A stretch of 64,000 nt of DNA from Brachybacterium paraconglomeratum (GTDB lineage: Bacteria > Actinomycetota > Actinomycetes > Actinomycetales > Dermabacteraceae), in NCBI RefSeq assembly GCF_003994255.1, contig NZ_ML133851.1, positions 434,001 to 498,000 of the forward strand, in the 5' to 3' direction. How positions within the stretch are numbered: the first letter of the stretch is position 1; each line of letters begins with the position of its first letter. Made by a program: the position numbers and the translations under genes. Of this stretch, positions 30,298 through 47,516 are shown piece by piece. The notes under the pieces are model-generated. The model ran no database searches, was not told the origin of the DNA, and saw only the letters and a list, made by a program, of their open reading frames with translations.

Positions 30298-30810
30298 ATG
30301 CAGATCCGCACGTACCGTTCCGGGGTCAACCGGATGTTCCTGTGGATGGGCGTGGCCCTCGTCGTGGTCGCGGTCCTGCTCTTCGGCGCGGTGCCGGTGC
30401 TCGGCTGGTCCCTCACGCGCAGCCCCGCCCTGCTCGGGATGCTGCTCGGCCTGCCGGTGTTCGGCCTCGCCGGGGCGGTGATGGCGCTGGTCGGGGCTCG
30501 GCGCCGCGTGCTCGTCGGACCGGACCGGGTGACCTGGTACGGGGTGCTCGGGGCCCCGAGCGTCGTCCTGTTCTCGGAGGTCGCCCACGTCGAGGTGCCC
30601 TCGGGGCGCCGGGGTCCCCGCGCCGTCGCGCTGCATCGCCGCGACGGCAGGGTGCAGGTGATCGGCGCGCTGGCCATGTCCTCGGGAGAGGGCGGCAACA
30701 GCGCGGACGGCGCCTACAGGGAGGCGGCGAGCGACCTCGTCGCCTCGCATGCCCGGTGGTGGGCGCTGGCCCGGGGCCCTCAGCAGGGCCGGACGCCGGG
30801 ACGACGCTGA
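30298..30810 (+). CDS. Two-helix membrane protein with PH-like tail
   Basis: 170 residues from ATG 30298 behind GGGAGGAG. Two hydrophobic helices (VALVVVAVLLFGAVPVLGW and LLGMLLGLPVFGLAGAVMAL) are followed by a beta-rich domain (RVLVGPDRVTWYGVLGAPSV, VALHRRDGRVQVIGALA) that resembles bacterial PH-like domains. The same plan appears in the gene at 32456, so the two are probably paralogues flanking the WXG gene. It follows valS by 28 bp and may be co-transcribed with it. Confidence 0.7.
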   Translation: MQIRTYRSGVNRMFLWMGVALVVVAVLLFGAVPVLGWSLTRSPALLGMLLGLPVFGLAGAVMALVGARRRVLVGPDRVTWYGVLGAPSVVLFSEVAHVEVPSGRRGPRAVALHRRDGRVQVIGALAMSSGEGGNSADGAYREAASDLVASHARWWALARGPQQGRTPGRR

Positions 30811-30883
30811 CCCGCCGCCGCTGACTGCAGGGCCTCGGAGCCGCGAGCGACCGCGAGGTGGCCGGCGGAGAGGCCGGTATCGC

Positions 30884-32194
30884 TCAGAACGGCCACTTGT
30901 CGGAGACGTAGTCCGTGGCCCCCTGGAACGCTCCGGAGGCGTCGCCGATCGCGTCGTCGATGTCGTAGTCGCCCGGGGTGAAGGTGTTCACGATCTGGTT
31001 CGGATGGACCGCCACGGTGGTGGAGCCGCCGAGCCCGAGCTCGGCCGCGAGCGAACCGGCGACGCTGACGGAGATCTCGTCGGCGGAGATCGTCTGCCCC
31101 GCGCCCGCCCCGACCCCGTAACCGGCCTTCTCGCTGATGGAGGTCGAGCCGGAGAACCATCCGCCGGGCGAGGTGGATTCGAAGGTCTGGGTCGCCTGCG
31201 CCCCGGCGAAGGCGCGGGCGTCGAAGCCCTGGCTGAAGCCGTTGACCTGACCGTCTTCGTTGCGCGTGACGTGCGAGTACGCGTTCGCGCTGGCGTTCGC
31301 GCCGGCGTAGAGGTCCTGCCGGATGGTCCCCGAATTGCCGAGCGGGCCGTCGACGGTGGCGTACTGCGAGGAATAGGCGCCGAGCCCGGCGCGGGCTCCG
31401 GCGGCGACGCCGTCCGGTCCGACGGTGCCTCCGGCCTCCGCGTAGCCCTCCGCCCCTACCCGGGCGCCGGCCTGGATCCCGGTCCCGAGAGGTCCGTCGA
31501 GGCGGTCGTCGATGCCGATCTCGGCGCTGCCCCGCGCACCGACGGTCCCGGTCACGTTGCCGTACGGATCGGTGGTGACGTTGGTGCCGGCGCTGTAGTC
31601 GTACCCCGCGTACCCGTCGAGGAATCCGTAGCTCTCGTCGATCTCGCGCCCGTCCCACAGCGAGTCGCCACCGGTGATCTGCTCGCCGATCGGTCGGTCG
31701 TCCCCGTACTTCGCGCCGCGCGAGGTGAAGCCTGGATCGCCGAAGAACTCCTGCGGCCCATCGCCGTCGCCGCCGGTGAACCAGTCCTCGAGGTCCTTGC
31801 GGAGGTGGTCGATGACGCCCGGGGTGAGGGGCAGCCCGGGGATCGGCGCGGGCAGCGGCATCAGCGGGCCCGGGAAGGGCATCGGGAACAGGTCGCGCAG
31901 GACGTCCAGAAGGCCGCCCCCGTCCCCGGCGGAGGCCTCGTCCTGCTCCTCGGCGTGGCGGCGGATCTCCTCGCCGCGGCCCTGGAGGTCTTCCGCCTTC
32001 GCGCGCAGGCCGGGCGCGATCACACCGTGCCACAGGGCGCGGAACGCTATCGCGTCCGGTCCCATCCACGGCACGGAATCGATGAGCCTCGTCGCCGCGT
32101 CGGTGATCTCGTCGACCGTCCGCGATCCCTGCTCGAAGGCGGTCCCCTGCTGCCGCATCTGCTCGGTGTCGCCGCCCTGGAAACCCGCCATCAT
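30884..32194 (-). CDS. Large WXG100-type protein with Gly/Ala-rich C-terminus
   Basis: 436 residues from ATG 32194 behind GGGAGAG. Residues about 1-95 are two helices around the turn VPWMGPDAIAFRALW, which shares the W-x-GPDA-x-AF pattern with the WXG-hydrolase at 7506. A Pro-rich hinge (LFPMPFPGPLMPLPAPIPG) follows. The rest is a long Gly/Ala/Tyr-rich region (GAGAGQTISADEISVSVAGS, GAEGYAEAGGTVG) and ends SDKWPF. No signal peptide is seen, so type VII-like export is inferred from the WXG fold. The C-terminal region matches no toxin family I recognise. Neither an ESX-type ATPase nor a WXG partner of 100 residues is in the window. Confidence 0.65.
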   Translation of the reverse strand: MMAGFQGGDTEQMRQQGTAFEQGSRTVDEITDAATRLIDSVPWMGPDAIAFRALWHGVIAPGLRAKAEDLQGRGEEIRRHAEEQDEASAGDGGGLLDVLRDLFPMPFPGPLMPLPAPIPGLPLTPGVIDHLRKDLEDWFTGGDGDGPQEFFGDPGFTSRGAKYGDDRPIGEQITGGDSLWDGREIDESYGFLDGYAGYDYSAGTNVTTDPYGNVTGTVGARGSAEIGIDDRLDGPLGTGIQAGARVGAEGYAEAGGTVGPDGVAAGARAGLGAYSSQYATVDGPLGNSGTIRQDLYAGANASANAYSHVTRNEDGQVNGFSQGFDARAFAGAQATQTFESTSPGGWFSGSTSISEKAGYGVGAGAGQTISADEISVSVAGSLAAELGLGGSTTVAVHPNQIVNTFTPGDYDIDDAIGDASGAFQGATDYVSDKWPF

Positions 32195-32290
32195 CTCTCC
32201 CCCGAAGTCCTCGTCGTGCGACGGGACCGTGTCCGGTCCCGCCCCGCCCCTCTGCTTCTGTCGACCGAGCCGGGCACGGCGACGCCGCTC

Positions 32291-32296
32291 AGACTA
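32291..32296 (-). promoter_or_regulatory. -10 element of the WXG gene
   Basis: TAGTCT on the minus strand, about 97 bp before ATG 32194; its -35 region runs into the palindrome at 32319-32336. Confidence 0.35.
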
Positions 32297-32318
32297 GGCA
32301 CCCTGCACCGCTCGGACC

Positions 32319-32336
32319 ATGGGGAGTACTCCCCAT
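32319..32336. promoter_or_regulatory. Perfect 18-bp palindrome between divergent genes
   Basis: ATGGGGAGTACTCCCCAT is fully self-complementary with no spacer. It lies between the WXG gene and the PH-like membrane gene and next to a -35 region, so a dimeric regulator site is likely. Confidence 0.6.
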
Positions 32337-32455
32337 CGACGCGCCCCGGGGCCCGCCGTGCTGCCACGACGGCGAGGAAGAGGGGTGACCACGCTGAGCT
32401 CGTCGCCCCGCGCTAGGGTGGGCAGCCGTCGTCCTCGACCCGCAGGGAGAACCTC

Positions 32456-32932
32456 GTGCAGGCAGTGATCCGCAGCGCCGGCGCTCAGGTGAACCTCGTC
32501 GTCGGCCCCATGGTCGCCCTGATCGGCGTGGCCGCGCTGCTCGCCGGGGTCGTCCTGTCGATCGTGCTGGAGACGATCTGGTTCCTGATGTTCCTGATCC
32601 CGGCGGCGATGGGGATCGGCGCCGGACTGCTCCTCCTCCGCGGCGCCCGCAGGTCCCGCCTGCAGATCGACCCGGAGGGCTTCACCTGGTGCGGGTTCGC
32701 CGGCGCGGAGCAGTCGCTGCGCTGGCAGGAGATCCACCAGCTGCTGCCGCCCCCGCCCGCGAGCCGACGGGTGGTCGCGATCGCGCAGCTGCGCGACGGA
32801 CGCCAGGTCGAGGTGCGGGCGCTGTGGGAATCGCCGACCTCCCCGGCCGTGCTGCTCGGGCCCTCGGACCACAGCCGCGCCCAGAACGTCCTGCTCGGCG
32901 CGCACCGCGCCTGGCTCGCCGGCCACCGCTGA
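32456..32932 (+). CDS. Two-helix membrane protein with PH-like tail
   Basis: 158 residues from GTG 32456 behind AGGGAG. Helices at about 15-65 (PMVALIGVAALLAGVVLSIV and FLMFLIPAAMGIGAGLLLL) precede a beta-rich tail (RLQIDPEGFTWCGFAGAEQS, IAQLRDGRQVEVRALW). Size and layout match the protein at 30298. Function unknown; sitting divergent from the WXG gene, it could be a membrane partner, but that is inference. Confidence 0.7.
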   Translation: MQAVIRSAGAQVNLVVGPMVALIGVAALLAGVVLSIVLETIWFLMFLIPAAMGIGAGLLLLRGARRSRLQIDPEGFTWCGFAGAEQSLRWQEIHQLLPPPPASRRVVAIAQLRDGRQVEVRALWESPTSPAVLLGPSDHSRAQNVLLGAHRAWLAGHR

Positions 32933-33027
32933 CGCCCGCGGCGCGGCAGAGCCCGCCCCTGGAGGTCAATGCTCCACCAGGCTGCGGCCGAGGCGGGCGG
33001 TGCACCCGGGCGCGTCACGGCCCGCGC

Positions 33028-34839
33028 TCAGCGCACGATCTCCCGGTGCCCGGCGTCCACGCGACGGGTCCAGCCGCGGCCGTCGAGATGCTCGAGCAGC
33101 GGGATCGCGACGCGGCGCGTCGTCCCCAGAGCCTGGCGGGCCTCGCTGGTGGTGAAGGGCTGCTCGAGCCGCGCCAGCTCCCGCATCGCGAGCGCGGGCG
33201 CGGCGGGCAGCAGCACGACCTCGTCGGGCAGCCGCAGCAGCCGGCCCTGCGCCGCGGCGGCGGCGAGCTCGCGGGCGCCGAGGCGGAGAGCGGCGAGGTC
33301 CTCGGCCTCCGGGGCGCGGAAGGGCGTCTCGGCGAGCCGTCGTTCGAGCTGTGTGACCCCGGACTCGGCGGCGCCGAGACCTGCGACGGCGGCAGGGTCC
33401 TTCACCCGGCCGGCCTCGAGCGTGAGGCCGGCGGCGGCCACGACCGCGTCGAGCAGCTCCGGGGCGGGCAGCGCCAGCGCGTCGGCGGCGGCCTTGCGGG
33501 GCAGGCCGGCGGAGAGCGGATCGGCCTGCACGGCCTCGGCGACGAGGGCGGTCAGCATCTCCCGCCAGTCGGCGAGCGCCCGAGCGTCGACGAGCTGCTC
33601 GCCGCGGCGCTCCACCCCGTCGGGCAGCTCCTCGGGGACGGCGAGGCCGTAGCGGCGCAGCACCTGCTCGCTCACGGCGCCGCGGCGTGCGACCTCCCCG
33701 GCGAGGTCCCCGCCCGCGGGCATCGCCTCGAGCACGGCCTGGCGCCGGCGGCCGTCGCCGCGCCGCGCCAGGGCGGGCGGGTCGACGTCGAGGACGCGAA
33801 CCCCGCTGCGCACAGCGTGGCTGCCGCTGCCGCGCAGCACGAGCGCATCGCCGACGGCCAACGGCAGCGGCCGCTCGAGGGTGAGCCGGGCATGCTCCTC
33901 GCCGAAGGGGCGCACCCGCGCGGTGACCTGGGCGGTGCCGAGGTGGGCGATCAGCTCGCCCGGGGCGCCCGCGAGGTCCTCGCCGGTGGTGCGGCGCACG
34001 TCGACCTGGGTGCTGAGGTGCCACGCCCCGGGGGTGATCAGCGCGTCGCCGCGACCGACCTGCTCCGCGTCGACACCGCGGAGGTTCACCGCGGCGCGGC
34101 TGACGGGGCCGAGCTCGGCGAGCCCTCCGCCGCGGGACTGCAGACCGCGGACCTGCACCTCGGTCCCCTCACCCCCGGGCTCCGCACCGCCGTGCGTGCC
34201 GATCAGCTCCAGCCGGTCCTCGCGGCACAGGGTGCCGGCGGCGAGGGTCCCGGTGATCACGGTGCCGGCGCCGGAGACGGTGAAGGCGCGGTCCACCCAT
34301 AGCCGCACCCGCTGCCCGGGGTCGGGACGGCGTGCAGCGGCGACGAGCTCGTCGAGCTGCACGCGCAGCGCGTCCATCCCCTCCCCGGTCACGGCGGAGA
34401 CCGCTAGAGCGGGCGCGGCGGCGAGTCCGGTGCCGGCGAGCTCCGTGCGGGCCTGGGCGATGACCTCCGGGACCCTGTCGGGAGCGAGGTCGGCGCGGGT
34501 GATCACGAGCAGGCCCTGGTCGATGCCGAGGGCGGCGACGGCGTCGCGGTGGTCGCTGGACTGCGCCTGCCAGCCCTCGTCGGCCGCGACGACGAAGCAG
34601 ACGATGGGGGCGGGGCCGATGCCGGCGAGCATGTTGCCGAGGAACCGCTCGTGGCCGGGCACGTCGACGAAGGAGACCTCCTGGCCGGAGGGCAGGACGG
34701 TCCAGGCGAAACCGAGGTCGATCGTGAGGCCGCGCCGCTTCTCCTCGGCGAGGCGGTCCGGCTCGATGCCGGTCAGCGCGCGGATCAGGGTGGATTTGCC
34801 GTGGTCGACGTGCCCGGCGGTGGCGATGACCTGCATCAT
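33028..34839 (-). CDS. selB: Selenocysteine-specific elongation factor SelB
   Basis: 603-residue GTPase that carries Sec-tRNA(Sec) to the ribosome at UGA codons marked by a SECIS hairpin. G1 is ATAGHVDHGKSTLIRALTG, and the switch II region is FVDVPGHERFLGNML. SelB uses RGLTIDLGFAW where EF-Tu has RGITI. The nucleotide specificity motif is TRADL (for NKxD). Domains II-III follow, then winged-helix repeats to the C-terminus (SEARQALGTTRRVAIPLLEH) that bind the SECIS RNA. Its ATG overlaps the selA stop as ATGA. The presence of selB beside tRNA-Sec and a UGA-containing fdh gene makes the assignment secure. Confidence 0.96.
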   Translation of the reverse strand: MMQVIATAGHVDHGKSTLIRALTGIEPDRLAEEKRRGLTIDLGFAWTVLPSGQEVSFVDVPGHERFLGNMLAGIGPAPIVCFVVAADEGWQAQSSDHRDAVAALGIDQGLLVITRADLAPDRVPEVIAQARTELAGTGLAAAPALAVSAVTGEGMDALRVQLDELVAAARRPDPGQRVRLWVDRAFTVSGAGTVITGTLAAGTLCREDRLELIGTHGGAEPGGEGTEVQVRGLQSRGGGLAELGPVSRAAVNLRGVDAEQVGRGDALITPGAWHLSTQVDVRRTTGEDLAGAPGELIAHLGTAQVTARVRPFGEEHARLTLERPLPLAVGDALVLRGSGSHAVRSGVRVLDVDPPALARRGDGRRRQAVLEAMPAGGDLAGEVARRGAVSEQVLRRYGLAVPEELPDGVERRGEQLVDARALADWREMLTALVAEAVQADPLSAGLPRKAAADALALPAPELLDAVVAAAGLTLEAGRVKDPAAVAGLGAAESGVTQLERRLAETPFRAPEAEDLAALRLGARELAAAAAQGRLLRLPDEVVLLPAAPALAMRELARLEQPFTTSEARQALGTTRRVAIPLLEHLDGRGWTRRVDAGHREIVR

Positions 34840-36302
34840 CGCGCAGGATCCTGAGCGGAGGCGTCCTCGGGGCGACGGCGGTTGTCGCGGTCGCGCAGCC
34901 GCTCCCGCGCCGCGGCGACGGCGCCGACCAGCGTGTCCTCGTGCTCGGCGGGCACGCAGCGCAGGTCCAGCAGGCAGGCGCTGCCCTGGACGGTGCCGAC
35001 GACGGCCGGGTCCCCGGTGCGGAGCTCCGCGGCCAGCTCCTCCTCGAGCGCGATCGCCCAGCCGGGCAGCGGCACCTCGGCGCCTCCCCCGCCGCCGACG
35101 CGGCCGTCATGGGCGACGGTGCGGCCGCCGAGCCGGGCCGCGAGCGCGTCGGTCCGCTCCCGCAGCGTGTCCGGGTCCGTGCGCAGCGCCGCGAGGACGG
35201 GCGGGACGGGACCGGCGAGGGTCGCCTCGATCGCGGCGAGCGCGAGCTTGTCGGCGCGGACCGCACGGGCCAGCGGGTGGCGGGCGAGGCGCGCGATCAC
35301 CTCGCGTCGGCCCAGCAGGATCCCGGCCTGAGGACCGCCGAGGAGCTTGTCGCCGCTGGTGATGACCACGTCGGCCCCCGCGGCGAGGGCCGAGGCGGCA
35401 TCGGGTTCGTCGGGCAGCGCGGGCTCGGGGCGCAGCAGTCCCGAGCCGAGATCGGCGATCAGCGGCAGTCCGTGCTCGTGCGCGAGCGCGGCGAGCTCGG
35501 CGATCCCGACCTCGCTGGTGAAGCCCTCGATGCGGTAGTTGCTGGTGTGGACCTTGAGGATCGCGCCGACGGGCGACTCGTCCGCGGGAGCCGGCTGCGC
35601 GCCCGGTCCCGGGGCGGCGGCGCCCGGCCCCGGGGCGGCGGCGCCCTGCTCCCCGCCGGCGCCGGCCGTGAGCGCCTCGCGGTAGTCGCTCGCATGGGTG
35701 CGGTTGGTGGTGCCGACCTCTCGCACCCGCGCCCCGGCGGAGGCGACGAGCTCCGCGAGCCGGAACCCGGCCCCGATCTCGACGAGCTCCCCGCGGCTCC
35801 ACAGCACTTCGCGGCCCGCGGCGAGCGCGGTCGTGGCCAGCAGCAGCGCGGCCGCGCCGTTGTTCACCACGAGCGCGTCCTCCGCCGCGGGGCAGGCGGC
35901 CAGCAGCGCGGCCCGCGCGCCGGCGCCGCGGCGGGAGCGGGCGCCGGTGGCGAGGTCGAACTCGACGTCGGTGTACCCGGCGGCGTCCTGGACCGCCTGC
36001 CGGGCCGCGGCCGAGAGCGGGGCCCGGCCGAGGTTGGTGTGGACGATGACGCCGGTCGCGTTCAGCACCGGGCGCAGCGAGGAGGCGCTGTGCTCCCCGA
36101 GGGAGGCGAGCACCGCGGCGGCCACGTCCTCCGGGGCGATCTCGCCGCGGCGGGCCCGGTCCTGGGCGGCGCGGACCAGGTCGTGCACCACGCGCTCCCC
36201 CATCGCGCCGCTCGCCGCGACGACCTCGGGCAGGGCGAGCAGGCGGTCCGTGCGCGGGATCCGCCGACGCGGGTCCTCCGCGCCGCTCGGGGACTGGGGC
36301 AC
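34836..36302 (-). CDS. selA: L-seryl-tRNA(Sec) selenium transferase
   Basis: 488-residue PLP enzyme that converts Ser-tRNA(Sec) to Sec-tRNA(Sec) using selenophosphate. Start GTG 36302 has a strong AGGAGG. The N-terminal domain RIPRTDRLLALPEVV binds the tRNA. The core has NATGVIVHTNLGRAPLS, and the PLP lysine is in VVITSGDKLLGGPQAG. A low-complexity insert rich in Ala, Pro and Gly (two copies of AAPGPGA, about 18-nt repeat) interrupts the core before VGAILKVHTSNYRIEGF. The insert is not in E. coli SelA as I know it and looks like a surface loop. Co-translated with selB. Confidence 0.96.
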   Translation of the reverse strand: MPQSPSGAEDPRRRIPRTDRLLALPEVVAASGAMGERVVHDLVRAAQDRARRGEIAPEDVAAAVLASLGEHSASSLRPVLNATGVIVHTNLGRAPLSAAARQAVQDAAGYTDVEFDLATGARSRRGAGARAALLAACPAAEDALVVNNGAAALLLATTALAAGREVLWSRGELVEIGAGFRLAELVASAGARVREVGTTNRTHASDYREALTAGAGGEQGAAAPGPGAAAPGPGAQPAPADESPVGAILKVHTSNYRIEGFTSEVGIAELAALAHEHGLPLIADLGSGLLRPEPALPDEPDAASALAAGADVVITSGDKLLGGPQAGILLGRREVIARLARHPLARAVRADKLALAAIEATLAGPVPPVLAALRTDPDTLRERTDALAARLGGRTVAHDGRVGGGGGAEVPLPGWAIALEEELAAELRTGDPAVVGTVQGSACLLDLRCVPAEHEDTLVGAVAAARERLRDRDNRRRPEDASAQDPAR

Positions 36303-36355
36303 GGGACCTCCTGCGCACGGGATCGGAGCGTCCGCCCGGCGGCGGACGGCAGTAT

Positions 36356-36450
36356 TGGCGGAGGCGGACGGGAATCGAACCCGCCAGACCGAGATGCTCG
36401 GTCTCACCAGTTTTGAAGACTGGGGCGCCCACCAGGACACGTACGCCTCC
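36356..36450 (-). tRNA. selC: tRNA-Sec (anticodon TCA)
   Basis: 95-nt gene including an encoded CCA (36356-36358). The 5' acceptor strand GGAGGCG (36444-36450) pairs with CGCCTCC (36360-36366), and the anticodon loop reads CTTCAAA in the stem-loop CCAGTCTTCAAAACTGG. A long variable arm (GAGACCGAGCATCTCGGTCT) and T-loop TTCGATT follow. The length, long extra arm and UCA anticodon are diagnostic. TATCGT at 36458-36463 is a likely -10. It lies between selA and selD. Confidence 0.96.
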
Positions 36451-36511
36451 GCGGGCGACGATATCACCGCCGGACCTGGGACGACGCTCGCCCTCCCCGG
36501 GCGGCCCGGGC

Positions 36512-36517
36512 TAGGGT
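36512..36517 (+). promoter_or_regulatory. selD -10 element (leaderless)
   Basis: TAGGGT ending 6 nt before ATG 36524; no ribosome site. Confidence 0.5.
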
Positions 36518-36523
36518 CGGGAC

Positions 36524-37543
36524 ATGAGCGACTCCCCCATCCAGCCCCTGGCCCGCCCCGAGATCCGCCTGACCACGATGGCGCACGGAGGCGGCTGCGC
36601 CTCGAAGATCCCGCCGGGCGAGCTCGAGGAGGTCGTCTCCTCCCTCGCCGGGCAGCAGTACGACCAGGTGATCGTGGGCCTGGACGACGGGGACGACGCC
36701 GCCGCCGTGCGGATCGGCGGGCCCGACGGCGACACCGCCGTGCTCTCCACCGCGGACTTCTTCACCCCCGTGGTCGACGACGCCCACGACTGGGGCCGGA
36801 TCGCGGCCGCGAACGCGCTCAGCGACATCTACGCGATGGGCGGCGACCCCGTGGTCGCGATCAACCTCGTCGGCTGGCCCCGCGAGGTCCTGCCCTACGA
36901 GCTGCTGCAGGAGGTGCTCGCCGGCGGTCTCGCGATCGCGACGGAGGCCGGGGTGCCGGTCATCGGCGGGCACTCGGTCGACGATCCCGAGCCCAAGTAC
37001 GGCATGGCCGTCACCGGCACCGCCCGCCCGGACCGTCTGCTGCGCAACGACGCCGCGGAGGCAGGCCTGCCGATCACGCTGACCAAGCCGCTCGGGGTGG
37101 GCCTGCTGAACAACCGCATGAAGTCCACCGGCGAGGCCTCCCCCGCCGCGATCGAGGTGATGACGACCCTGAACCGGGACGCCTCGAAGTCTGCGCTCGA
37201 GGCCGGGGCGCGCGCCGCGACCGATGTGACGGGCTTCGGCCTGCTGGGCCACCTGTACAAGATGGGCCGCGCGTCCGGGGTCGGGATGATCCTGGACCGG
37301 GCGGCGGTGCCCCTGGTCGACGGTGCGGCGGAGGCGCTGCGGGACGGGTTCGTCTCCGGCGGGACGCGGCGGAACCTCGAGTGGGTGCGCCATGCGGTCC
37401 AGGCCGGCCCCGGCATCGACGAGGACGATCTGCTGTTGCTCGCCGACGCGCAGACCTCGGGCGGCCTGCTGGTGATCGGCGAGGTGCCCGGGTATCCGGT
37501 GATCGGCGAGACCGTTCCCGGTGAGGGCATCCAGGTCCGCTGA
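36524..37543 (+). CDS. selD: Selenide, water dikinase
   Basis: 339-residue enzyme that makes selenophosphate, the selenium donor for SelA, from selenide and ATP. The catalytic loop is HGGGCASKI with Cys25 and Lys28; many SelD proteins have Sec at this Cys, but here it is a normal codon. Gly-rich nucleotide motifs include VGLDDGDDAAAVRI, NALSDIYAMGGDPV and GGHSVDDPEPKYG. ATG 36524 is probably at the transcript start. It is divergent from tRNA-Sec/selA/selB and convergent with the fdh operon, ending only 21 bp from the nrfD-type stop, with no clear terminator between. Confidence 0.96.
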   Translation: MSDSPIQPLARPEIRLTTMAHGGGCASKIPPGELEEVVSSLAGQQYDQVIVGLDDGDDAAAVRIGGPDGDTAVLSTADFFTPVVDDAHDWGRIAAANALSDIYAMGGDPVVAINLVGWPREVLPYELLQEVLAGGLAIATEAGVPVIGGHSVDDPEPKYGMAVTGTARPDRLLRNDAAEAGLPITLTKPLGVGLLNNRMKSTGEASPAAIEVMTTLNRDASKSALEAGARAATDVTGFGLLGHLYKMGRASGVGMILDRAAVPLVDGAAEALRDGFVSGGTRRNLEWVRHAVQAGPGIDEDDLLLLADAQTSGGLLVIGEVPGYPVIGETVPGEGIQVR

Positions 37544-37564
37544 CTGCGCCCCGGGCCTGCCCGT

Positions 37565-38680
37565 TCAGCCGGCAGTGGTGATCGAGTCGTCGGTGATGCC
37601 GGCGGCGCGGCGGGCCGCCAGGCGCGCCTTCTGCGGCTCTATCACGCGGCGCGGGTCCTTCACGGACTCGAGCCCGGCGTTCAGCACTCCGAAGCGGGTC
37701 AGGGCCGAGGCGGTCAGCAGCGCGGCACCACTCGCCGCGGCGACGACACGGCTGCGCCCGCCGAGGAGCGTGCCGATGCCGCCCGCGATCGCGAGGCGCT
37801 CCGCCCAGGTCAGGAGCTTGCCGGGGGTCCCGGTCTCGAGCGGCTCCCGCTCCAGGGGGTGCATCGACTCCTTCATCAGGTGCATGCTCGCCACGTCGCC
37901 GGCGACCCCGGCGGCCGCGAGGAGCCGGGCGGGAGCGGACTCGGCGACGGGGGTGGTGACCATCGCGGCGCCGCCCGCGGCGAGGCTCGCGGAGGAGGCG
38001 AAGAGGTAGGAGAGGTGGCCGCGGCCGGCCTCCCAGGTGGGGACCACGGTGTTGCCCAGCAGCGCGCCGGTGTACGAGGCGAGCAGGGGGGCGAGGGCGA
38101 CCTGGCCGAGGGAGGCCGGTCCCTCGGCGGCCCTGAGCAGGGGGCGCAGCGCCCCGAGCGGGAGCTTCTCCCCCGCCAGGCGGTCGACCTCGCGCGCGCC
38201 GAGCACACCGGACAGCGAGGCGAAGCCTCCCACCACCCAGGTGCCGAGGCTCATGGGGCTGGTGACCTTGACCGTGCGCATCATGTTCAGGAACCGCTCG
38301 GGGCGGCCGAGGTCCTCGATGAGCGCCAGGGTGCCGAGCCCGACGGTGCCGAGCGCCGTGAGGCGCGCGCTGCGGCGCAGCACCGGGCGACCGGTGCACT
38401 GCGCCCCGAAGGCCAGCAGGCCCGAGCCGCCGGCGACGCCGCCGAGGAACAGGTAGACGGCGATCGGGGCCTTCCACGGCGGCGCCTTGACCACGGGCCG
38501 ACCGTAGTAGGAGTCGTACTGCTCGGACCGCTCGATCTCGACGTCCTCGACGACGGCGCCCTCGCGAGAGCCGTCGCCCATCCCGACCTCGCCGAGGCCG
38601 CGGCGGCGTCGGCGCTTCCCTCCGCCGCGCCGGCGGGGCTTCTCCGGCGGACGGTCCGCGTCGTACTCGGTGATGCTCAT
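37565..38680 (-). CDS. Formate dehydrogenase membrane subunit, NrfD/PsrC family
   Basis: 371-residue polytopic protein, last gene of the fdh operon. A basic N-terminal tail (RRRGGGKRRRRRGLG) and the segment SYYGRPVVKAPPWKAPIAVY lead into about eight helices (IAVYLFLGGVAGGSGLLAFG, LGRPERFLNMMRTVKVTSPM is the conserved loop). It likely takes electrons from the beta subunit and passes them to menaquinone. E. coli FDH-N uses a cytochrome b556 here; this haem-free NrfD type is known from actinobacterial systems. ATGA overlap with the beta gene. Confidence 0.88.
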   Translation of the reverse strand: MSITEYDADRPPEKPRRRGGGKRRRRRGLGEVGMGDGSREGAVVEDVEIERSEQYDSYYGRPVVKAPPWKAPIAVYLFLGGVAGGSGLLAFGAQCTGRPVLRRSARLTALGTVGLGTLALIEDLGRPERFLNMMRTVKVTSPMSLGTWVVGGFASLSGVLGAREVDRLAGEKLPLGALRPLLRAAEGPASLGQVALAPLLASYTGALLGNTVVPTWEAGRGHLSYLFASSASLAAGGAAMVTTPVAESAPARLLAAAGVAGDVASMHLMKESMHPLEREPLETGTPGKLLTWAERLAIAGGIGTLLGGRSRVVAAASGAALLTASALTRFGVLNAGLESVKDPRRVIEPQKARLAARRAAGITDDSITTAG

Positions 38681-39678
38681 CGACGCGCCCCCAGGAAGGA
38701 CAGCGCGACGGCCGCGACCATCCCCGCGGCCGCGATGCCGGTGCGGGCGTAGAGCTTCGGCAGCGCCTTGGTGGGCACCTGCGGGTCCGGCGGGAGGCCG
38801 TACACCTCGGGCTCGTCCAGCAGCAGGAACACCGAGCCGGTGCCGCCCACGCCGTCCTTGGGGTTCGCGCCGTACAGCCGCGCCTCGGTCATGCCGCGCT
38901 CGTGCAGGTCCGCGACCCGCTGCTTCGCGTCGGCCGTGAGATCGGGGTGGTCGCCGAAGGTGATCGACTGCGTGGGGCAGGTGGCGGAGCAGGCGGGCTG
39001 CTCGCCGTCGACCAGCCGGTCGTAGCACAGCGTGCACTTGCTCGCGGTGTTGCGGCGAGGGTCCTCCTCCTCGCGCACGGCGAACGGGGAGACGGTCCCG
39101 TCGTCGCGGCGCTCGATGACGCCGAAGGGGCAGGCGCTCACGCAGGTGCCGCAGCCGTTGCACACGTCCTGCTGCACCACGACGGAGCCGTACTCGGAGC
39201 GGAAGATCGCACCGGTCGGGCAGACGTCCAGGCAGCCGGCGTTGGTGCAGTGCTTGCACACGTCCGAGGACATCAGCCAGCGGAACTCGGGGGTGTCCGG
39301 CGGGGTGCGGTCCACGTCCGAGAGGTCACCGGCGGGGGTCGCGCCCCGCTTGCCGGAGGACTTCGGGCCGATCCCCGGCATGCCGAGGCTGACGAGCTTG
39401 CGCCCGGACTCCCGCGCCTCCTCGATCCGCTCCTGGCCCTGCTCGACGAAGGCGACATGGCGCCAGGTGTTCGCGCCGAGCTCGCCGGTGTTGTCGTAGC
39501 TCGAGCCGAGGATCTCGAGGTTGCCGTCGATCGGGTTGCGGTTCCACTCCTTGCACGCCACCTCGCAGGCCTTGCAGCCGATGCAGATGGAGGTGTCGGT
39601 GAAGAACCCCTTGCGCTCGTGGTCGTGGTCCCATCCCGCGTCCGCGGAGGGTCCTTCCGGTCCGGCGAGCAGGCTCAT
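38677..39678 (-). CDS. fdhB: Formate dehydrogenase beta (iron-sulfur) subunit
   Basis: 333-residue electron-transfer subunit with four Cys-rich [4Fe-4S] motifs: CIGCKACEVACKEWN, CKHCTNAGCLDVCPTGA, CNGCGTCVSACPFGV and CTLCYDRLVDGEQPAC...CP. A single hydrophobic helix near the C-terminus (GIAAAGMVAAVALSFLG) anchors it, as in FdnH. It passes electrons from the molybdopterin/tungstopterin alpha subunit to the NrfD subunit. Its ATG overlaps the alpha stop, and its stop overlaps the NrfD start, both as ATGA. Confidence 0.95.
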   Translation of the reverse strand: MSLLAGPEGPSADAGWDHDHERKGFFTDTSICIGCKACEVACKEWNRNPIDGNLEILGSSYDNTGELGANTWRHVAFVEQGQERIEEARESGRKLVSLGMPGIGPKSSGKRGATPAGDLSDVDRTPPDTPEFRWLMSSDVCKHCTNAGCLDVCPTGAIFRSEYGSVVVQQDVCNGCGTCVSACPFGVIERRDDGTVSPFAVREEEDPRRNTASKCTLCYDRLVDGEQPACSATCPTQSITFGDHPDLTADAKQRVADLHERGMTEARLYGANPKDGVGGTGSVFLLLDEPEVYGLPPDPQVPTKALPKLYARTGIAAAGMVAAVALSFLGARR

Positions 39679-42600
39679 CGGTTCCTCATCTCCTTCATCG
39701 ACGGCTCCCCTGTGGGCACGGCGGTGGCCTCCTCCGGACCGCGCACCTCGTGCGGGGTCCCGCCCGTGGCCGGGCCGGCACCGGGAGCACCCTCGGCCCC
39801 GTCGACCTGCGGGTGCAGCGCGGGGATCAGCCCGGCCCTGCGGCGGTACTCCTCCACCAGCTCGGCACGGCCCGGCCCGCGGGGGCGGCGCCCGGGCAGG
39901 ATCGTGCACGAGTTGTTCTTGCTGTTCTGGATCTGGGTGTTGGCGTCGAGGTTCATCCCGATCAGGTCGTTCGCCCCGTCGCCCTGCACCACCGCGGCGC
40001 TGCCGCGGCCCCAGTGGAACGGGAGGCCGATCTGGTGGACAGTGCGCCCGCCCACGTGGAGCGGGGTCATCCGCTCTGTGACCAGAACCTTCGCCTCGAT
40101 CGCGTTGCGGGCCGAGATGATCGTCGCCCACCCGTAGGGTTCGAGCCCGATCTCCGCGGCGAGCTCCGGGGAGACCTCGCAGTACATCTCCGGCTGGAGC
40201 TCGGAGAGATAGGGCAGGAACCGACTCATGCCGCCGGCGGTGTGGTGCTCGGTGATCCGGTAGGTGGTGAACACGTACGGATACACCTCACCGCCCTGCG
40301 CCGACGCGCCCGGCGAGCTGAGGTTGTCCTCGTCCTGGAAGGTGACGCGGGTGGGATTGGACTGCTGGGGGTACAGAGGATTGGGGATGTTCGACTCCGG
40401 CGACTCGTAATGGGTCGGCAACGGCCCGTCCACCATGCCGGTCGGCGCGAAGAGCCATCCGCGCCCGTCGGACTGCATCGTGAACGCATCGTTCCCCGCC
40501 AGCGCCGCCACGCCGCCCTTGCCCGGGTCCCCGGGGTCGTCGGGACGCTTCGTGGGCGGGAAGTCGGGCACGTCCTTCCCGGTCCATGTCCCGGTCTCTT
40601 CGTCCCACCAGACCCACTTCTTCCGCTCGCTCCACGGGCGGCCCTCGGGATCGGCCGAGGCCCGGTTGTAGAGGATCCGTCGGTTCCCGGGCCAGGCCCA
40701 GCCCCATTCGGCGGCGGTCTCGTCCTGCTCCTGACCGGGTGTCCGCTTCCGGGCACGGTTGATCCCGTCCGCGTAGACGCCGGAGTAGATCCAGCAGCCT
40801 CCGCTCGTGGAGCCGTCGTCCTTCATCTCCCCGAAGGAGGCCAGCGGCTGCCCGGCCCTCTCACCGGAGATGTGGCGGCCGTTGATCTCGGCGAGCACCG
40901 CCTCGGCGTCCGGCTCGCCGTGCTCGTTGACGGGATAATCCCAGGTCAGTTCGAGAATCGGCCGGTCGCGAGGGTCGGAGGAGTCCTTGAGCTTCTCCCG
41001 CACGCGGCGTCCCAGCTCGTACATGAACTCGAGATCGCTCTTCGCGTCGCCCGGCGGCTCGACGGCCTGGTCGCGCCACTGCACCATGCGCTGGGTCTGC
41101 GTGAACGACCCGGCCTTCTCGGTGTGGTTCGCGGCCGGGAGGAAGAACATCTCGGTGCCGATCTGCTCCGGGGAGAGCTCCCCCGACTCGATCTCCGGTC
41201 CGTCCTTCCAGAAGGTCGCCGACTCGATCATGTAGAAGTCGCGCACCACCATCCACTTCAGGTGCGTCAGGCCCAGACGCTGCATACGCCCGTTGGCCGA
41301 GCCGACAGCGGGGTTCTGGCCGAACAGGAAGTATCCGTCGACCCCGCCCTCGAGCATCCGCATAACGGTCTGGTACGTGCCGTGAGCGCCGGTGAGCCGG
41401 GGCAGGTGGTGATACGCCCAGTCGTTCTCGGCGGTGGCGTGCTTCCCCCACCAGGCCTTCAGCAGATTGATCGTGTAGATGTCCGCATTGGCCCAGAAGC
41501 CCTTCTGCTCCTTCTTCCCCACCAGTCGCGTGTACTCGTCGAAGTCGTCCTGTCCGGCCTTCGGCATCGGAAGGTAGCCTGGCAGGATGTGGTAGAGCGT
41601 CGGGATGTCGGTGGAGCCCTGGATGGTGGCGTGTCCGCGCAGCGCCATGATGCCGCCGCCGGGGCGTCCCATATTGCCCATGAGCAGCTGGAGGATGCCG
41701 GAGGTGCGGATCATCTGCGCACCGCCCTGGTGCTGGGTCCAGCCCAGCGCGTAGGCGAACATCGTCGTCTTCTCGCGGCCCGAGTTCTCCGCGATCGAAC
41801 TCGCGAGGTACTCGAAGTCCTCCGGAGCGATGCCGCAGGTCTCCTGCACCATCTCCGGGGTGTAGCGCGCGTAGTGACGCTTCAGGATCTGGAAGACGGT
41901 GCGGGGGTGCTGCAGGGTCTCGTCCCGCTCGGGCAGGCCGCGCGCGATCGCGTCGGGATCACCCGCATACGCCCAGGTGGTGTTGTCGTAGGTGCCGGTC
42001 TCCGGGTCGTAGCCGGAGAACAGGCCGTCGAGGTCCTCGGGGTCGCCGTACGCCTCGGAGATGAGCGTCGAGGCGTTGGTGTACGCCTGCACGTACTCCT
42101 TGAAGTACAGCTCGTTCTCGAGCACGTGCCGGATCACGCCGCCGAGCAGCACGATGTCCGTGCCGGTGCGGATCGGGATGTGCCGATCGGCGTTGGCGGA
42201 GGTGCGTGTGAACCGCGGGTCGACGTGGATGACCCGGGAGCCGCGCTTGCGCGCCTCGATCACCCATTGGAAGGCGACCGGATGGGCTTCGGCCATGTTC
42301 GAGCCCTCGATGACGATGAGGTCAGCGTTGGCGAAGTCCTGCACCGTGTTCGTGGCACCGCCACGACCGAACGAGGCTCCCAGACTGGGAACCGTGGCGG
42401 AGTGTCATATGCGGGCCTGGTTCTCCATCTGGATGGCGCCCGCGGCGGTGAAGAACTTCTTGATCAGATAGTTCTCCTCGTTGTCGATGGTCGCGCCGCC
42501 GAGGCTCGCGATGCCCATCGTCCGCCGGAGGGGGTTGCCCTGCTCGTCCTCGTCCTCCCAGTGCTTCCGGCGCGCCTCGAGGAAGCGGTCCGCGATCATG

Positions 42601-42971
42601 TCCATCGCGGTGTCGAGGTCGAGGTCCTCCCACTCGGTCCCGTAGGGGCGGCGGTAGCGGACCTTCGTCTGGCGCAGGTAGGAGTTCGCGAGCTGCTCGC
42701 TCGCGGCGCCCTTCGGGCACAGCCGGCCCCGGGAGACCGGGGAGTCCGGGTTGCCCTCGATGTTGATGACGCGTCCGTCCTTGTGGAAGACGCGCTGGCT
42801 GCAGCCGACGGCGCAGTACGGGCAGACGCTGTCGACGACACCGTCCGCCTCCGCGGTGCGCGGCATCGTGCTGCGGGTCCGCGGGGACGTGACGGCGGTG
42901 CCGCGTCCCGTCGGATCCGCCCCGCGAAGCTGCCGGATCACCGGCCAGTCGAGGAACGTCTTTCGAGCCAT
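39675..42971 (-). CDS. fdhA: Formate dehydrogenase alpha subunit, selenoprotein (UGA = Sec at residue 189)
   Basis: Mo/W-bis-MGD enzyme oxidising formate to CO2; 1098 residues if the TGA at 42405-42407 is read as selenocysteine. The frame continues unbroken from 42971 through the TGA to 39675, and the residues around it (MENQARI-U-HSATVPSLG) are the conserved FDH active site, where other enzymes have Cys or Sec. The N-terminus has the [4Fe-4S] ligands Cys50, 53, 57 (CPYCAVGC) and Cys85 (RGRLCPKG). There is no twin-arginine leader, so it faces the cytoplasm, as in related actinobacterial enzymes. Start ATG 42971 follows TAGCAT by 7 nt (leaderless). Gene finders that stop at TGA will split it in two. 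Confidence 0.95.
42375..42393 (-). promoter_or_regulatory. SECIS element of fdhA
   Basis: Starting 11 nt after the UGA, GGTTCCCA (42386-42393) pairs over 8 bp (one G-U) with TGGGAGCC (42375-42382) around loop GTC. The position and the GU-containing apex closely resemble the E. coli fdhF SECIS, which SelB binds. Confidence 0.9.
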
Positions 42972-42978
42972 GTCCCCG

Positions 42979-42984
42979 ATGCTA
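42979..42984 (-). promoter_or_regulatory. fdh operon -10 element (leaderless)
   Basis: TAGCAT on the minus strand, 7 nt before ATG 42971; no Shine-Dalgarno; -35 weak. Confidence 0.5.
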
Positions 42985-43113
42985 TCAGCGGTTTCGGCCC
43001 GAAGGGCGCGGTCCGCGAGGTCCCGGCGCGGCTCGGGCGGGCAGACCCGCGGCCGACCGACCGGCAGGGCAATGCGGACCCGTCGGCGGGGCGGCGCGGA
43101 CCCGCTGGGGGCG

Positions 43114-43454
43114 TCAGGCCCCGGCGGCGCCCTCGTGGCGGATCCGCTCGTGGTGGCGGATCACCTCGGTGACGATGAAGCGCATGAACGCCTCGGCGAA
43201 GGTGGGGTCCAGCCCCGCGGCGTCGGCGAGGGAGCGCAGTCGCTCGATCTGCTGCTGCTCCCGCGCCGGATCCGCCGGCGGCAGGCCGTGCTCGGCCTTC
43301 AGCAGGCCCACGCGCTGAGTGTGGGAGAAGCGCTCGGCGAGCAGGTGCACGAGGGCGGCGTCGATGTTGTCGATGCTGCGCCGCTCTTCGCCCAGCAGCT
43401 CCCGGGCCCGGGCGACGTCCGCCTCGCGCGGGGCGCCCGCGTGGCCGGATGCGC

Positions 43455-43458
<4 letters not shown>
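43114..43458 (-). CDS. Chorismate mutase, AroQ type
   Basis: 114-residue all-helical enzyme converting chorismate to prephenate for Phe and Tyr synthesis. [20 protein letters not shown] is the first helix, with conserved Arg and Asp, and [20 protein letters not shown] carries the catalytic Lys/Arg set. [17 protein letters not shown] closes the helical bundle. It matches the short monofunctional actinobacterial form. ATG 43458 overlaps the clpX stop as ATGA, so it is translated with clpX, an odd pairing of protein quality control with aromatic biosynthesis that is nevertheless seen in related genera as I recall. Confidence 0.9.
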
Positions 43459-44795
<1,337 letters not shown>

Positions 44796-44877
44796 AGCTG
44801 TCCTCCTCCTCGGCGCTCAGGTCCGTCCAGCCTACCCGCCGCTCCTCGCGTGACCGCGCAGGCTCGCTGTGGGCAGA

Positions 44878-44907
44878 ACGACGGCCCCGCCGCAGCGGGG
44901 CCGTCGT
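44878..44907 (-). terminator. Terminator after clpP1-clpP2
   Basis: Perfect 13-bp stem ACGACGGCCCCGC (44878-44890) with 44895-44907, loop CGCA. Confidence 0.85.
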
Positions 44908-44953
44908 GGTCGATCGTCGTGCGGCGGAGCCGTCGCGGCGGCCCGCCGGATCG

Positions 44954-45658
44954 TCAGCGCCCGAGCGCCGGACGCGGCTCCTTGCGGGAGGTGAGCACCT
45001 GGTCGACCAGGCCGTACTCGAGGGCGCCCTGCGCGGTGAGGATCTTGTCGCGCTCGATGTCGGCGCTCACCTGCTCCTTGGTGCGGCCCGAGTGGTGGGC
45101 GAGGGTCTCCTCGAGCCACTCGCGCATGCGCATGATCTCGTTGGCCTGGATCTCGAGGTCGGAGGCCTGGCCGCCGCCGCCCTCGCCGCCCATCGCGGGC
45201 TGGTGGATGAGGATGCGCGCGTTCGGCAGCGCGAGCCGCTTGCCGGGGGCGCCGGCCGCGAGCAGCACGGCGGCGGCGGAGGCCGCCTGGCCCAGGCACA
45301 CGGTGGTGATCTCGGGCTTGATGTACTGCATCGTGTCGTAGATCGCGGTCAGCGCGGTGAACGAGCCGCCGGGGCTGTTGATGTACAGCGTGATGTCGCG
45401 GTCCGGGTCCTGGGACTCGAGCACGAGCAGCTGCGCCATGACGTCGTCGGCCGAGGCGTCGTCCACCTGCACGCCGAGGAAGATGATGCGGTCGTCGAAG
45501 AGCTTGGTGTAGGGGTCCTGGCGCTTGAAGCCGTAGGGCGTGCGCTCCTCGTACTGGGGCAGCACGTAGCGGGAGGTCGGCATCTGAGCGGCGGCGGCGG
45601 GCTGCGCGCCGGCCTGGGCCATGGGCAGCGCGCCGATGGTGCGGGGATCGAAGGTCAC
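44954..45658 (-). CDS. clpP2: ClpP protease subunit, second copy
   Basis: 234-residue serine protease subunit. The catalytic Ser is in [16 protein letters not shown], His in [12 protein letters not shown], and Asp in [18 protein letters not shown]. It has a longer N-terminus ([20 protein letters not shown]) than ClpP1. In actinobacteria the two ClpP types form a mixed 14-mer working with ClpX and ClpC1. GTG 45658 behind CAGGAG, 46 bp downstream of clpP1, same transcript. Confidence 0.95.
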
Positions 45659-45704
45659 GGGGTCTCCTGGTCTCGAAGGTGTCGGAAGGTTCTGGAGGGG
45701 GCGA

Positions 45705-46346
45705 TCAGCTGTCGGTGCCGCCGCCGCCCGTGACGTCGCCGGAGCCGGCGACGATCTTGTCGATGAAGCCGTACTCCAGGGCCTCCGCCGCCGTGAACCA
45801 GTGGTCGCGGTCGGAGTCGGCGTGGATCTGCTCGACGCTCTTGCCGGTCTGCTCGGCGATCAGCTCGGCGAGCTGGTTCTTCATCGAGAGGATGAGGTCG
45901 GCCTGGATGCGGATGTCGGTGGCGGTGCCGCCGAGGCCGCCGAGCGGCTGGTGCATGAGCACGCGGGTGTGCGGGGTCGCGTAGCGCTTGCCCTTCGTGC
46001 CGGAAGAGAGCAGGAACTGGCCCATCGAGGCCGCCATGCCCATGCCGACGGTCACGATGTCCGGCTTGACGAACTTCATCGTGTCGTAGATGGCCATGCC
46101 CGCGGTGATCGAGCCGCCGGGGCTGTTGATGTAGAGGTAGATGTCCTTGTCCGGGTCCTCGGCGGCCAGCAGCAGGATCTTGGCGCAGATCGCGTTGGCG
46201 TTCTCGTCGCGGACCTCCGAGCCGAGCCACACGATGCGCTCGCGCAGAAGGCGCTGGTAGACGTTGTCGTCGAGGCCCATCGGGGAATCGCCGGCCGCGT
46301 CACGGGGCGCGGAGGGCTGGCTGCTCTGCGGGGTCTGAGAGGTCAC
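45705..46346 (-). CDS. clpP1: ClpP protease subunit, first copy
   Basis: 213-residue ClpP with catalytic Ser in [17 protein letters not shown], His in [11 protein letters not shown] and Asp in [20 protein letters not shown] 46346 behind GGAG. First gene of clpP1-clpP2. A ClgR-like box lies about 70-85 bp upstream, and TAGAGT at 46383-46388 is a probable -10, so the pair is likely induced by ClgR when misfolded proteins build up (inference from family knowledge). Confidence 0.95.
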
Positions 46347-46382
46347 GGGGGCTCCTTGATCGCGGGAATCGTCGATGCGTCG

Positions 46383-46388
46383 ACTCTA
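46383..46388 (-). promoter_or_regulatory. clpP1 -10 element
   Basis: TAGAGT on the minus strand, 37 nt before the clpP1 start; -35 not obvious, consistent with an activator-dependent promoter. Confidence 0.45.
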
Positions 46389-46416
46389 GGCGCTGGGCGG
46401 GAGGGTGACGGGCCCT

Positions 46417-46433
46417 GTTCGCCGCAGGCGCAC
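46417..46433. promoter_or_regulatory. Candidate ClgR activator box
   Basis: GTTCGC-CGCAG-GCGCAC matches the CGC-Y-N4-GCG core (here CGC-N5-GCG with Y = C) described for ClgR sites in front of clpP genes, and it lies just upstream of the expected -35. Confidence 0.6.
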
Positions 46434-46533
46434 TGGCGCGGCGCCGCAGCCCCTGTGGCGCCCCGCCCCCGGGTTCGTCAAGGTGGGGCGAGAGTCGGTC
46501 ACGACTTCCTGCCGATCTGTAAAAAACAGACAA

Positions 46534-46585
46534 AGAGCGTTATCCGGGTCTGCCAAGCGCCTTCAGATGGGCCCCGGATCGCTCT
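46534..46585 (+). promoter_or_regulatory. Inverted repeat upstream of NlpC/P60 gene
   Basis: AGAGCG-TT-ATCCGGG (46534-46548) pairs with CCCGGAT-CGCTCT (46573-46585): 13 bp with a 2-nt bulge and a 24-nt loop. A possible promoter (TTCAGA at 46562-46567, TACCTT at 46586-46591) overlaps its right arm, so it may be an operator rather than an RNA switch. Confidence 0.45.
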
Positions 46586-46679
46586 TACCTTGAAGTCACC
46601 ACCCCGACCCCAGAGGTCGCGACATCCCGCAGGAATGCCCCCGGCCCCCGGTCGGGATCGGAAGGAACTCCCGCTCATC

Positions 46680-47516
46680 ATGGCTCAGCACAACTCCCAC
46701 CGTCTCCCCGTCCGCGCCCAGCTCCCCACCCGCCAGGCCGGCACCGCGGCCCGCGGGCTCGGCGGCGCCGCCGTCCTCGGCACCGTGGTCCTCGGCACCG
46801 CCTTCACCGGCGCCTCGGCCCAGGCCGCGCCCGCCGCCCCGAGCGCCCCGGCCGCTCCGGCCGCCGCCGCTCCGGCCACGGCCGACGCGGCCCCCTCGGT
46901 CGCCCCGTCGGCCGCCCTGAACTCCACCCAGAAGCTCCGCTGGGGCTCCCGCGGCGGCGCCGTGCAGGAGCTGCAGTCGGCGCTGAACTCGAACGGCGCG
47001 GGCCTCGCGGTCGACGGCGTGTTCGGCAAGCGCACCCACGCGGCGGTCAAGGACTACCAGTCCTCCAAGGGCCTCCAGGTCGACGGGGTCGTCGGCCCGA
47101 AGACCCGCGCCGCCCTCAACGGCGGCGTCTCCACCGGCGGCGCCTCCGCCCCCTCCTCGAGCGCTTCGAGCTCCTCCTCCGGCTCCTCCAGCACCATCGT
47201 GAACGCGGCCCGCTCCGCCGTGGGCACCCCCTACTCCTGGGGCGGCTCCTCCCTCGGCGGCATGGACTGCTCGGGCCTCGTGAACTACGCCTACAAGGCC
47301 GCCGGCATCTCGCTGCCGCGCACCTCCGGCCAGATCGCCAACGGCGGCCGCTGGATCTCCCAGTCGCAGGCCCAGCCCGGCGACATCGTCGCCTGGTCCG
47401 GCCACGTCGCGATCTACGCCGGCAACGGCCAGATCATCGACGCCTCCGGCTCGAAGCAGCGCGTCGTCGAGCGCTCCATCTGGGGCAACCCGATCGGCTT
47501 CGTCACCTACCGCTGA
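46680..47516 (+). CDS. Secreted NlpC/P60 peptidoglycan hydrolase
   Basis: 278-residue cell-wall endopeptidase. A basic start and hydrophobic stretch (GGAAVLGTVVLGTAFTGASA) form a signal peptide ending near residue 40, then an Ala/Pro linker. Residues about 83-140 are a peptidoglycan-binding domain (RGGAVQELQSALNSNGAGLA, VDGVVGPKTRAALN). A Ser-rich linker leads to the catalytic domain with Cys in GGMDCSGLVNYAYK and His in WSGHVAIYAGNGQ. It should cut stem peptides during growth or division. The ribosome site AAGGA is unusually far (about 13 nt) from ATG 46680. An in-frame ATG at 46635 behind CAGGA is an alternative. Confidence 0.92.
   Translation: MAQHNSHRLPVRAQLPTRQAGTAARGLGGAAVLGTVVLGTAFTGASAQAAPAAPSAPAAPAAAAPATADAAPSVAPSAALNSTQKLRWGSRGGAVQELQSALNSNGAGLAVDGVFGKRTHAAVKDYQSSKGLQVDGVVGPKTRAALNGGVSTGGASAPSSSASSSSSGSSSTIVNAARSAVGTPYSWGGSSLGGMDCSGLVNYAYKAAGISLPRTSGQIANGGRWISQSQAQPGDIVAWSGHVAIYAGNGQIIDASGSKQRVVERSIWGNPIGFVTYR

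Follow-up and report, generated by a model that had tools for sequence, protein, structure and literature searches.

A selenocysteine-decoding locus at a conserved site in Brachybacterium whose formate dehydrogenase operon appears to be exchanged between species apart from the sel genes

The window analyzed here, a stretch of 64,000 nucleotides of Brachybacterium paraconglomeratum (assembly GCF_003994255.1, contig NZ_ML133851.1, positions 434,001 to 498,000), contains at positions 33028-42971 a block of genes for the decoding of UGA as selenocysteine (Sec) and for one enzyme that uses it: selB, selA, the tRNA-Sec gene (selC) and selD are followed by fdhC, fdhB and fdhA, the genes of a formate dehydrogenase (Table 1). 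The composition of this block had been proposed in a preliminary description made from the sequence and is confirmed by family scores above the cut-offs; equally exact was the statement that the fdh genes converge on selD with 21 bp between the stops (37543 and 37565). The sequence features by which the selABCD trait is recognized are all present, i.e. SelA, SelB, SelD, a tRNA-Sec with the anticodon UCA and a UGA-containing client gene with an adjacent hairpin. ATGA overlaps connect selA with selB, fdhA with fdhB and fdhB with fdhC; selC-selA-selB would probably form one transcript and fdhA-fdhB-fdhC a second. The long frame of selA opens at 36467 and crosses the tRNA-Sec gene; GTG 36302, preceded by AGGAGG, is the likelier start. 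The cysteine in the GGGCASK motif of SelD is taken by us to mark the Sec/Cys position of the protein.

Table 1. Features of the selenocysteine-decoding locus and its client operon (window coordinates)
Feature	Position	Strand	Description
selB	33028-34839	-	Sec-specific elongation factor, 603 aa; TIGR00475 255.0 bits (cut-off 242.25)
selA	34836-36302	-	L-seryl-tRNA(Sec) selenium transferase; TIGR00474 399.1 bits (cut-off 267.9); start GTG 36302 inferred
selC (tRNA-Sec)	36360-36450	-	RF01852 79.8 bits (cut-off 47), E 8e-15; ARAGORN 36356-36450, anticodon tca
selD	36524-37543	+	Selenophosphate synthetase, cysteine form (GGGCASK), without internal stop; TIGR00476 369.8 bits (cut-off 125)
fdhC	37565-38680	-	NrfD-type membrane subunit; PF03916 65.4 bits (cut-off 25.8)
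fdhB	38677-39678	-	4Fe-4S ferredoxin-type subunit; PF13247 75.6 bits; TIGR01582 165.9 bits (under equivalog cut-off 334.7)
fdhA	39675-42971	-	Sec-containing formate dehydrogenase catalytic subunit, 1098 residues if UGA is read; NF041513
Predicted Sec codon UGA of fdhA	42405-42407	-	Residue 189
SECIS apical hairpin	42375-42393	-	7-bp stem, 5-base loop AGTCT
High-identity tract with Brachybacterium squillarum (G090)	37565-43025		Genes 95-98% identical in DNA, flanks much more diverged; approximate ends

Each half of fdhA matched NF041513 (formate_DH_Act), with 1819.6 bits for the combined halves versus a cut-off of 1400; with the 3' and 5' parts scanned apart, the model of the FDH-N alpha subunit (TIGR01553, cut-off 814.2) gave 776.1 and 118.3 bits, respectively. 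FdhB stayed below the cut-off of the FDH-N/O beta-subunit model (Table 1), and the third subunit showed NrfD (PF03916) as its sole Pfam match in place of the cytochrome b gamma subunit of FDH-N/O. According to the established knowledge of these families, SelD would produce selenophosphate, SelA would turn seryl-tRNA-Sec into Sec-tRNA-Sec, and SelB would deliver the latter to the ribosome at the fdhA UGA by binding the hairpin located just 3' of it; the resulting membrane-linked molybdenum-Sec formate dehydrogenase, with FdhA as catalytic, FdhB as iron-sulphur and FdhC as NrfD-type subunit, would oxidise formate.

The fdhA frame is interrupted by a single TGA (context NQARI-stop-HSATV), at which Sec is predicted to be inserted. 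A single TGA was likewise present within the fdhA match of 39 of the 40 genomes of the order that carry an NF041513 fdhA, and in the 5' part of the gene in all 37 genomes of the genus that carry it; the protein context ENQAR-I/V-stop-HS is common to the 70 loci read, seven of which (L094-L097, L099, L100, L102) lie outside Actinomycetota according to their record titles. The putative selenocysteine insertion sequence (SECIS) gave as a single sequence (42350-42420) a folding z of -2.35, with 5 of 200 shuffles equally good. Its alignment comprised 46 distinct 54-base stretches from the 70 loci (some species were present in two collections, and identical stretches were counted once), in which 97.5% of the cells of the seven-pair stem were paired. 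Columns 24 and 36, which correspond to third codon positions (Val and Gly), formed the pairs UA (30), CG (10), GU (2), UG (2), AU (1) and GC (1), none being broken. The covariation score was reached by none of 500 shuffles, four of the five measures were unreached by any shuffle, and slid controls scored lower on every measure; four of the seven pairs are invariant and thus uninformative on covariation. The loop AGTCT is presumably similar to the SECIS loop of Escherichia coli fdhF.

Within the same genome, the tRNA-Sec model found 11 matches, of which the gene listed in Table 1 was the only one above the cut-off (a second Sec tRNA is thus not supported; one of the other ten is by its position the tRNA-Gly of the window). 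selA, selD and NF041513 fdhA occur in one copy each, the latter as two pieces of one gene, and a search with the SECIS model R1 yielded a single match; the model derives from fdhA sequences only, so that an unlike SECIS would escape it, and the scoring covered 150 of 3069 first-look candidates. A scan of the window for in-frame TGA codons resulted in four candidates under a base-composition filter: a selenoprotein context was found in fdhA only, and the other three are judged to be gene ends. Further sel or Sec-encoding genes elsewhere, named in the preliminary description as evidence against it, were not found among the tRNA-Sec, selA, selD, fdhA and SECIS matches, a second selB not having been searched for and other selenoprotein families not genome-wide. 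The block is nevertheless not "self-contained", as had been stated: formate dehydrogenase activity needs FdhD and the molybdenum cofactor, and fdhD is located on another contig (C9) and a moaA-type gene (PF06463) at C1:590429, approximately 113 kb from the block. In consequence, the block alone should not yield an active enzyme, and it lacks the self-sufficiency for the trait that would characterize a mobile island.

The distribution in the order was surveyed in 119 genomes of 56 genera, and the loci comprised up to 20 kb around selA in 40 genomes and the window (41 in total). selA was detected in 41 genomes (18 genera), all of them among the 42 genomes with selD, and NF041513 fdhA in 40, in agreement with the supposed patchiness of Sec use. 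The four sel parts lay within the fetched stretch in 38 of the 41 loci (exceptions: G004, G017, G023), and in 27 fdhA, complete or in part, was also present within 20 kb; the strand layout of the window was found in 26 of these 27, the tRNA-Sec gene being inverted in the remaining one. All 39 tRNA-Sec genes reported by ARAGORN have the anticodon tca. Among the 14 loci without fdhA in the stretch, the gene was found on the same contig, approximately 9-30 kb from selA, in G064, G007, G042, G114, G025 and G023, and on another contig in the drafts G016, G014 and G092 (450-700 contigs) as well as in G059 and G017. Some relatives thus keep parts of the system scattered: besides G059, selA is distant from selD and fdhA in G017, selD is on another contig in G004, and selB and tRNA-Sec were not found in the stretch around selA in G023. 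The draft genome G032 (1060 contigs) has selD and fdhA without selA. Most genomes have either both machinery and client or neither, each being of little use alone; the proposed joint gain or loss of sel and fdh is borne out by the near-perfect co-occurrence of selA and selD and by one loss within the genus (G122, see below), but not by G004, G010, G108 and G052. The genomes G004 (L043), G010 (L067) and G108 (L057) hold selA, selB, selD and tRNA-Sec without an NF041513 formate dehydrogenase, and the fdhA-based SECIS search gave nothing convincing in these three genomes (best E 0.815). The NF041513 formate dehydrogenase of G052 (C1:2396527-2399760) has no in-frame stop and is likely a non-Sec homologue.

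Among the 38 genomes of the genus surveyed, selA and fdhA were each found in 37, fdhD in 36 and selD in 35; the additional gaps concern drafts (selD: G138 with 750 and G144 with 410 contigs; fdhD: G142 with 520 contigs). valS and a chorismate mutase gene flank the identically ordered genes in 30 of the 37 loci (the window and 36 others); in the remaining seven, a contig or stretch end cuts off a flank. The block is probably ancestral in Brachybacterium. The genome without it, G122 (99% complete, 20 contigs), gave no match for selA, selD, fdhA, fdhD and the PF06463 moaA-type domain, the genome-wide search not including selB and tRNA-Sec; the distance from valS to the chorismate mutase gene is only about 1.35 kb, the block being gone. 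Genes from three separate places in the genome of the window (block, fdhD, moaA) are missing together in this genome. The moaA-type domain was searched in seven genomes and matched in six; it is present in G062, a member of another genus of the family without the block at the valS/chorismate mutase site. In the place of the block, G122 has a methyltransferase gene and a PhdYeFM (YefM)/YoeB-type toxin-antitoxin pair (L136, 3256-4458). In two further genomes of the survey, the fdhA of L131 (G120) was matched as three fragments and shows a second TGA, and the selA match of L130 (G139) is partial with a TGA; both breaks may be draft errors or decay.

The comparison of the genome of the window (G000) with G090, taken to be Brachybacterium squillarum, revealed strongly different degrees of relatedness within the block. 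DNA identity amounted to 94.8, 97.5 and 96.8% for fdhC, fdhB and fdhA versus 72.2, 75.0 and 76.8% for selB, selA and selD; the neighboring valS and chorismate mutase genes were 87 and 84% identical, and the aligned blocks around fdhD and moaA 67-79% (78.0% for those holding fdhD, 75.0% for moaA). The identity climbs at the selD/fdhC junction (~37565) and drops just upstream of fdhA (~43025). Gene pairs and trees were based on the 32 genomes with all sel and fdh genes (30 of these also with valS), and the correlation table on the 29 with all eight genes; the pair table omits genes covered by less than 70% (valS of G131 and G130, selB of G142) and genes absent from short contigs. In the sel tree, the window grouped with G118 (support 94) and G137 (100) and G090 with G011 (93). 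In the fdh tree, the window and G090 were sister to each other with a support of 100 in the SH-like approximate likelihood ratio test (SH-aLRT), and both were nested in the group of G118, G137 and G119 (100). In the approximately unbiased (AU) test, the sel data rejected the window+G090 group (p-AU 0.000249) and the fdh data rejected both G090+G011 (3.5e-6) and window+G118 (9e-57), the latter because G090 is placed there. Congruence of the sel and fdh phylogenies, suggested earlier as a check, was in consequence refuted for the groups tested. The valS tree placed G000 with G137 (99). As the fdh and sel genes of the window fall in the same group, G090 is the likely recipient, i.e. the transfer would have been directed into B. 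squillarum.

A second case was found in G124 and G135, which joined G134 in the sel tree and G046 in the fdh tree; the fdh data rejected G134+G124+G135 at 1e-39. G135 was closer to G134 in valS, selB, selA and selD, and closer to G046 in the bins 10.5-16.5 kb, from the end of selD through fdhA, with the exception of the first kilobase at the alignment edge; the borders are similar to those of the G000/G090 tract. Genus-wide, the pairwise distances of the fdh genes correlated at 0.92-0.94 with one another and at 0.54-0.67 with those of the sel genes, the latter values climbing to 0.74-0.82 once four named genomes were removed. Judged from these sequences, fdhCBA appears to move between species apart from the sel genes, presumably by homologous recombination.

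The locus is, with high probability, a canonical Sec-decoding locus at one genus-wide site, the client operon fdhCBA of which has also been exchanged between species without the sel genes. It is fairly probable, if less so, that the sel machinery represents a fixed resident and fdhCBA a swappable cassette that includes the SECIS of the operon and a short piece of upstream DNA; this cassette would recombine at the convergent stops of selD and fdhC and shortly ahead of fdhA, and would work at once with the diverged SelB, SelA and FdhD of the recipient. Several observations weigh against the main interpretation, a canonical locus with client exchange. With respect to the SECIS, 13 of 500 shuffles had at least as many pairs with changes on both sides as the alignment (2), and the outermost pair was broken in 8 of the 46 sequences. 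The pairing of sel genes and fdhA is not absolute, since G004, G010 and G108 carry selA and selD without NF041513 fdhA and G052 carries this fdhA without selA or selD. Regarding the exchange, the valS data rejected neither G000+G090 (p-AU 0.11) nor G046+G124+G135 (p-AU 0.168), the rejection of the latter group by the sel data was moderate (p-AU 0.013), and all these p values are descriptive only, because the clades were picked after the identities had been seen.

It is improbable that the block is instead a mobile element that jumps whole among actinobacteria and carries the UGA trait with it. Whole-trait transfers have been published, two of the pairs within Actinobacteria according to the available text of PMC5029168. 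The absence of the block from the same valS/chorismate mutase site in G122 and G062 would also fit such an element, as would the GC content of the sel part (0.767; 5% of the window stretches of the same length are as high). However, the site is the same in every Brachybacterium locus in which it is not cut, and the block as a whole has a GC content of 0.734 versus 0.731 for the window (fdh part: 0.705; 6.7% of the same-length window stretches are as low). No 14-mer is shared between 31001-33100 and 42901-43700 (exact direct repeats, inverted and diverged ones being outside the test). Moreover, fdhD and the molybdenum cofactor gene would have to come from elsewhere, and the sel and fdh trees are in conflict. 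The earlier suggestion that the block could move as a unit is therefore not supported for this lineage. The proteins scanned in and beside the block, which represent some of the open reading frames there, included neither an integrase nor a transposase.

Still less likely is the explanation that the strong fdh similarity to B. squillarum is due to slow evolution of the fdh genes or to an artefact of assembly or contamination. Indeed, mean identity is slightly higher for the fdh genes than for the sel genes (mean difference 0.015, standard deviation 0.032, 496 genus pairs), and the two B. squillarum copies come from a single assembly, so that an error could be common to both. The G000-G090 difference of 0.217, however, is more than six standard deviations off this mean, the closer relatives G118, G137 and G119 are only about 88% identical to the window across 35653-42990, and the G090 contig extends into diverged selD and chorismate mutase genes of its own. 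That the TGA present in the fdhA frame is a genuine stop, leaving a pseudogene or two proteins, has a negligible probability in view of its recurrence in the same context across the genomes and loci given above, the conservation of both fdhA halves, the covarying SECIS and the full Sec machinery adjoining it.

The tight packaging, which had been considered the notable feature, recurs in 27 of the 41 loci of the order, and clustering of selABCD with fdh genes in actinobacteria is already published and not novel. In Corynebacterium aurimucosum, selABD and selC are clustered with UGA-containing fdnG and fdxH, an order termed highly conserved in Sec-using bacteria (PMC2830990); this region of another genus resembles the window in its clustering, and flanks and client exchange are absent from its description in the available text. 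A selABCD cluster near a UGA-SECIS fdhA (FDH-O) was reported for Streptomyces incarnatus (PMC4498112), to which the window is likened by this actinobacterial clustering and not by gene order, as far as the accessible part of that report goes. In Proteobacteria, fdoGHI-selABCD clusters were described and horizontal transfer of the cluster was proposed (PMC8124441, available portion); client and machinery are clustered as here, but in a different phylum, and in Brachybacterium the client would move without the machinery. The whole-trait transfers of PMC5029168, in most donors and recipients of which the sel genes lie near the sole selenoprotein gene fdhA or share an operon with it, are trait gains in the portion available, whereas in the Brachybacterium exchange both partners have the trait and the client alone is replaced. 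selD was described in 2005 as rarely contiguous to selA-selB (PMC1273633, in part); its adjacency is therefore a feature of the present arrangement and not of all. A 2026 review (PMC13188914) covers selenoprotein operons, client-only exchange not being among them in its available text, and at the level of titles and abstracts no report of such an exchange was found in the open literature on Sec in Brachybacterium or on recombination of selenoprotein fdh operons. Packaging alone accordingly teaches little new, and only the client exchange merits a second look: the tree conflict separates the idea that clustering marks whole-trait transfer from the idea that it reflects shared dependence, and the client swaps would be natural cases of an imported SECIS and enzyme having to function with the resident SelB.

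Beyond fdhA, a diverged direct DNA repeat (44990-45494 and 45760-46162, plus strand) lies at the junction of two large frames: 43449-45341 has no family match, and 45621-47516 encodes an NlpC/P60 hydrolase with a peptidoglycan-binding domain. The gene limits around 44990-46162 are unsure, since the repeat is seen in the DNA, yet in the present framing the encoded proteins show no match to one another. On the other side of the block, the 555-aa frame at 30749-32416 (plus strand) between valS and selB has no Pfam or NCBIfam match, so that its tentative label "folC?" is without family support; it shows 31-46% identity to counterparts in some relatives only.

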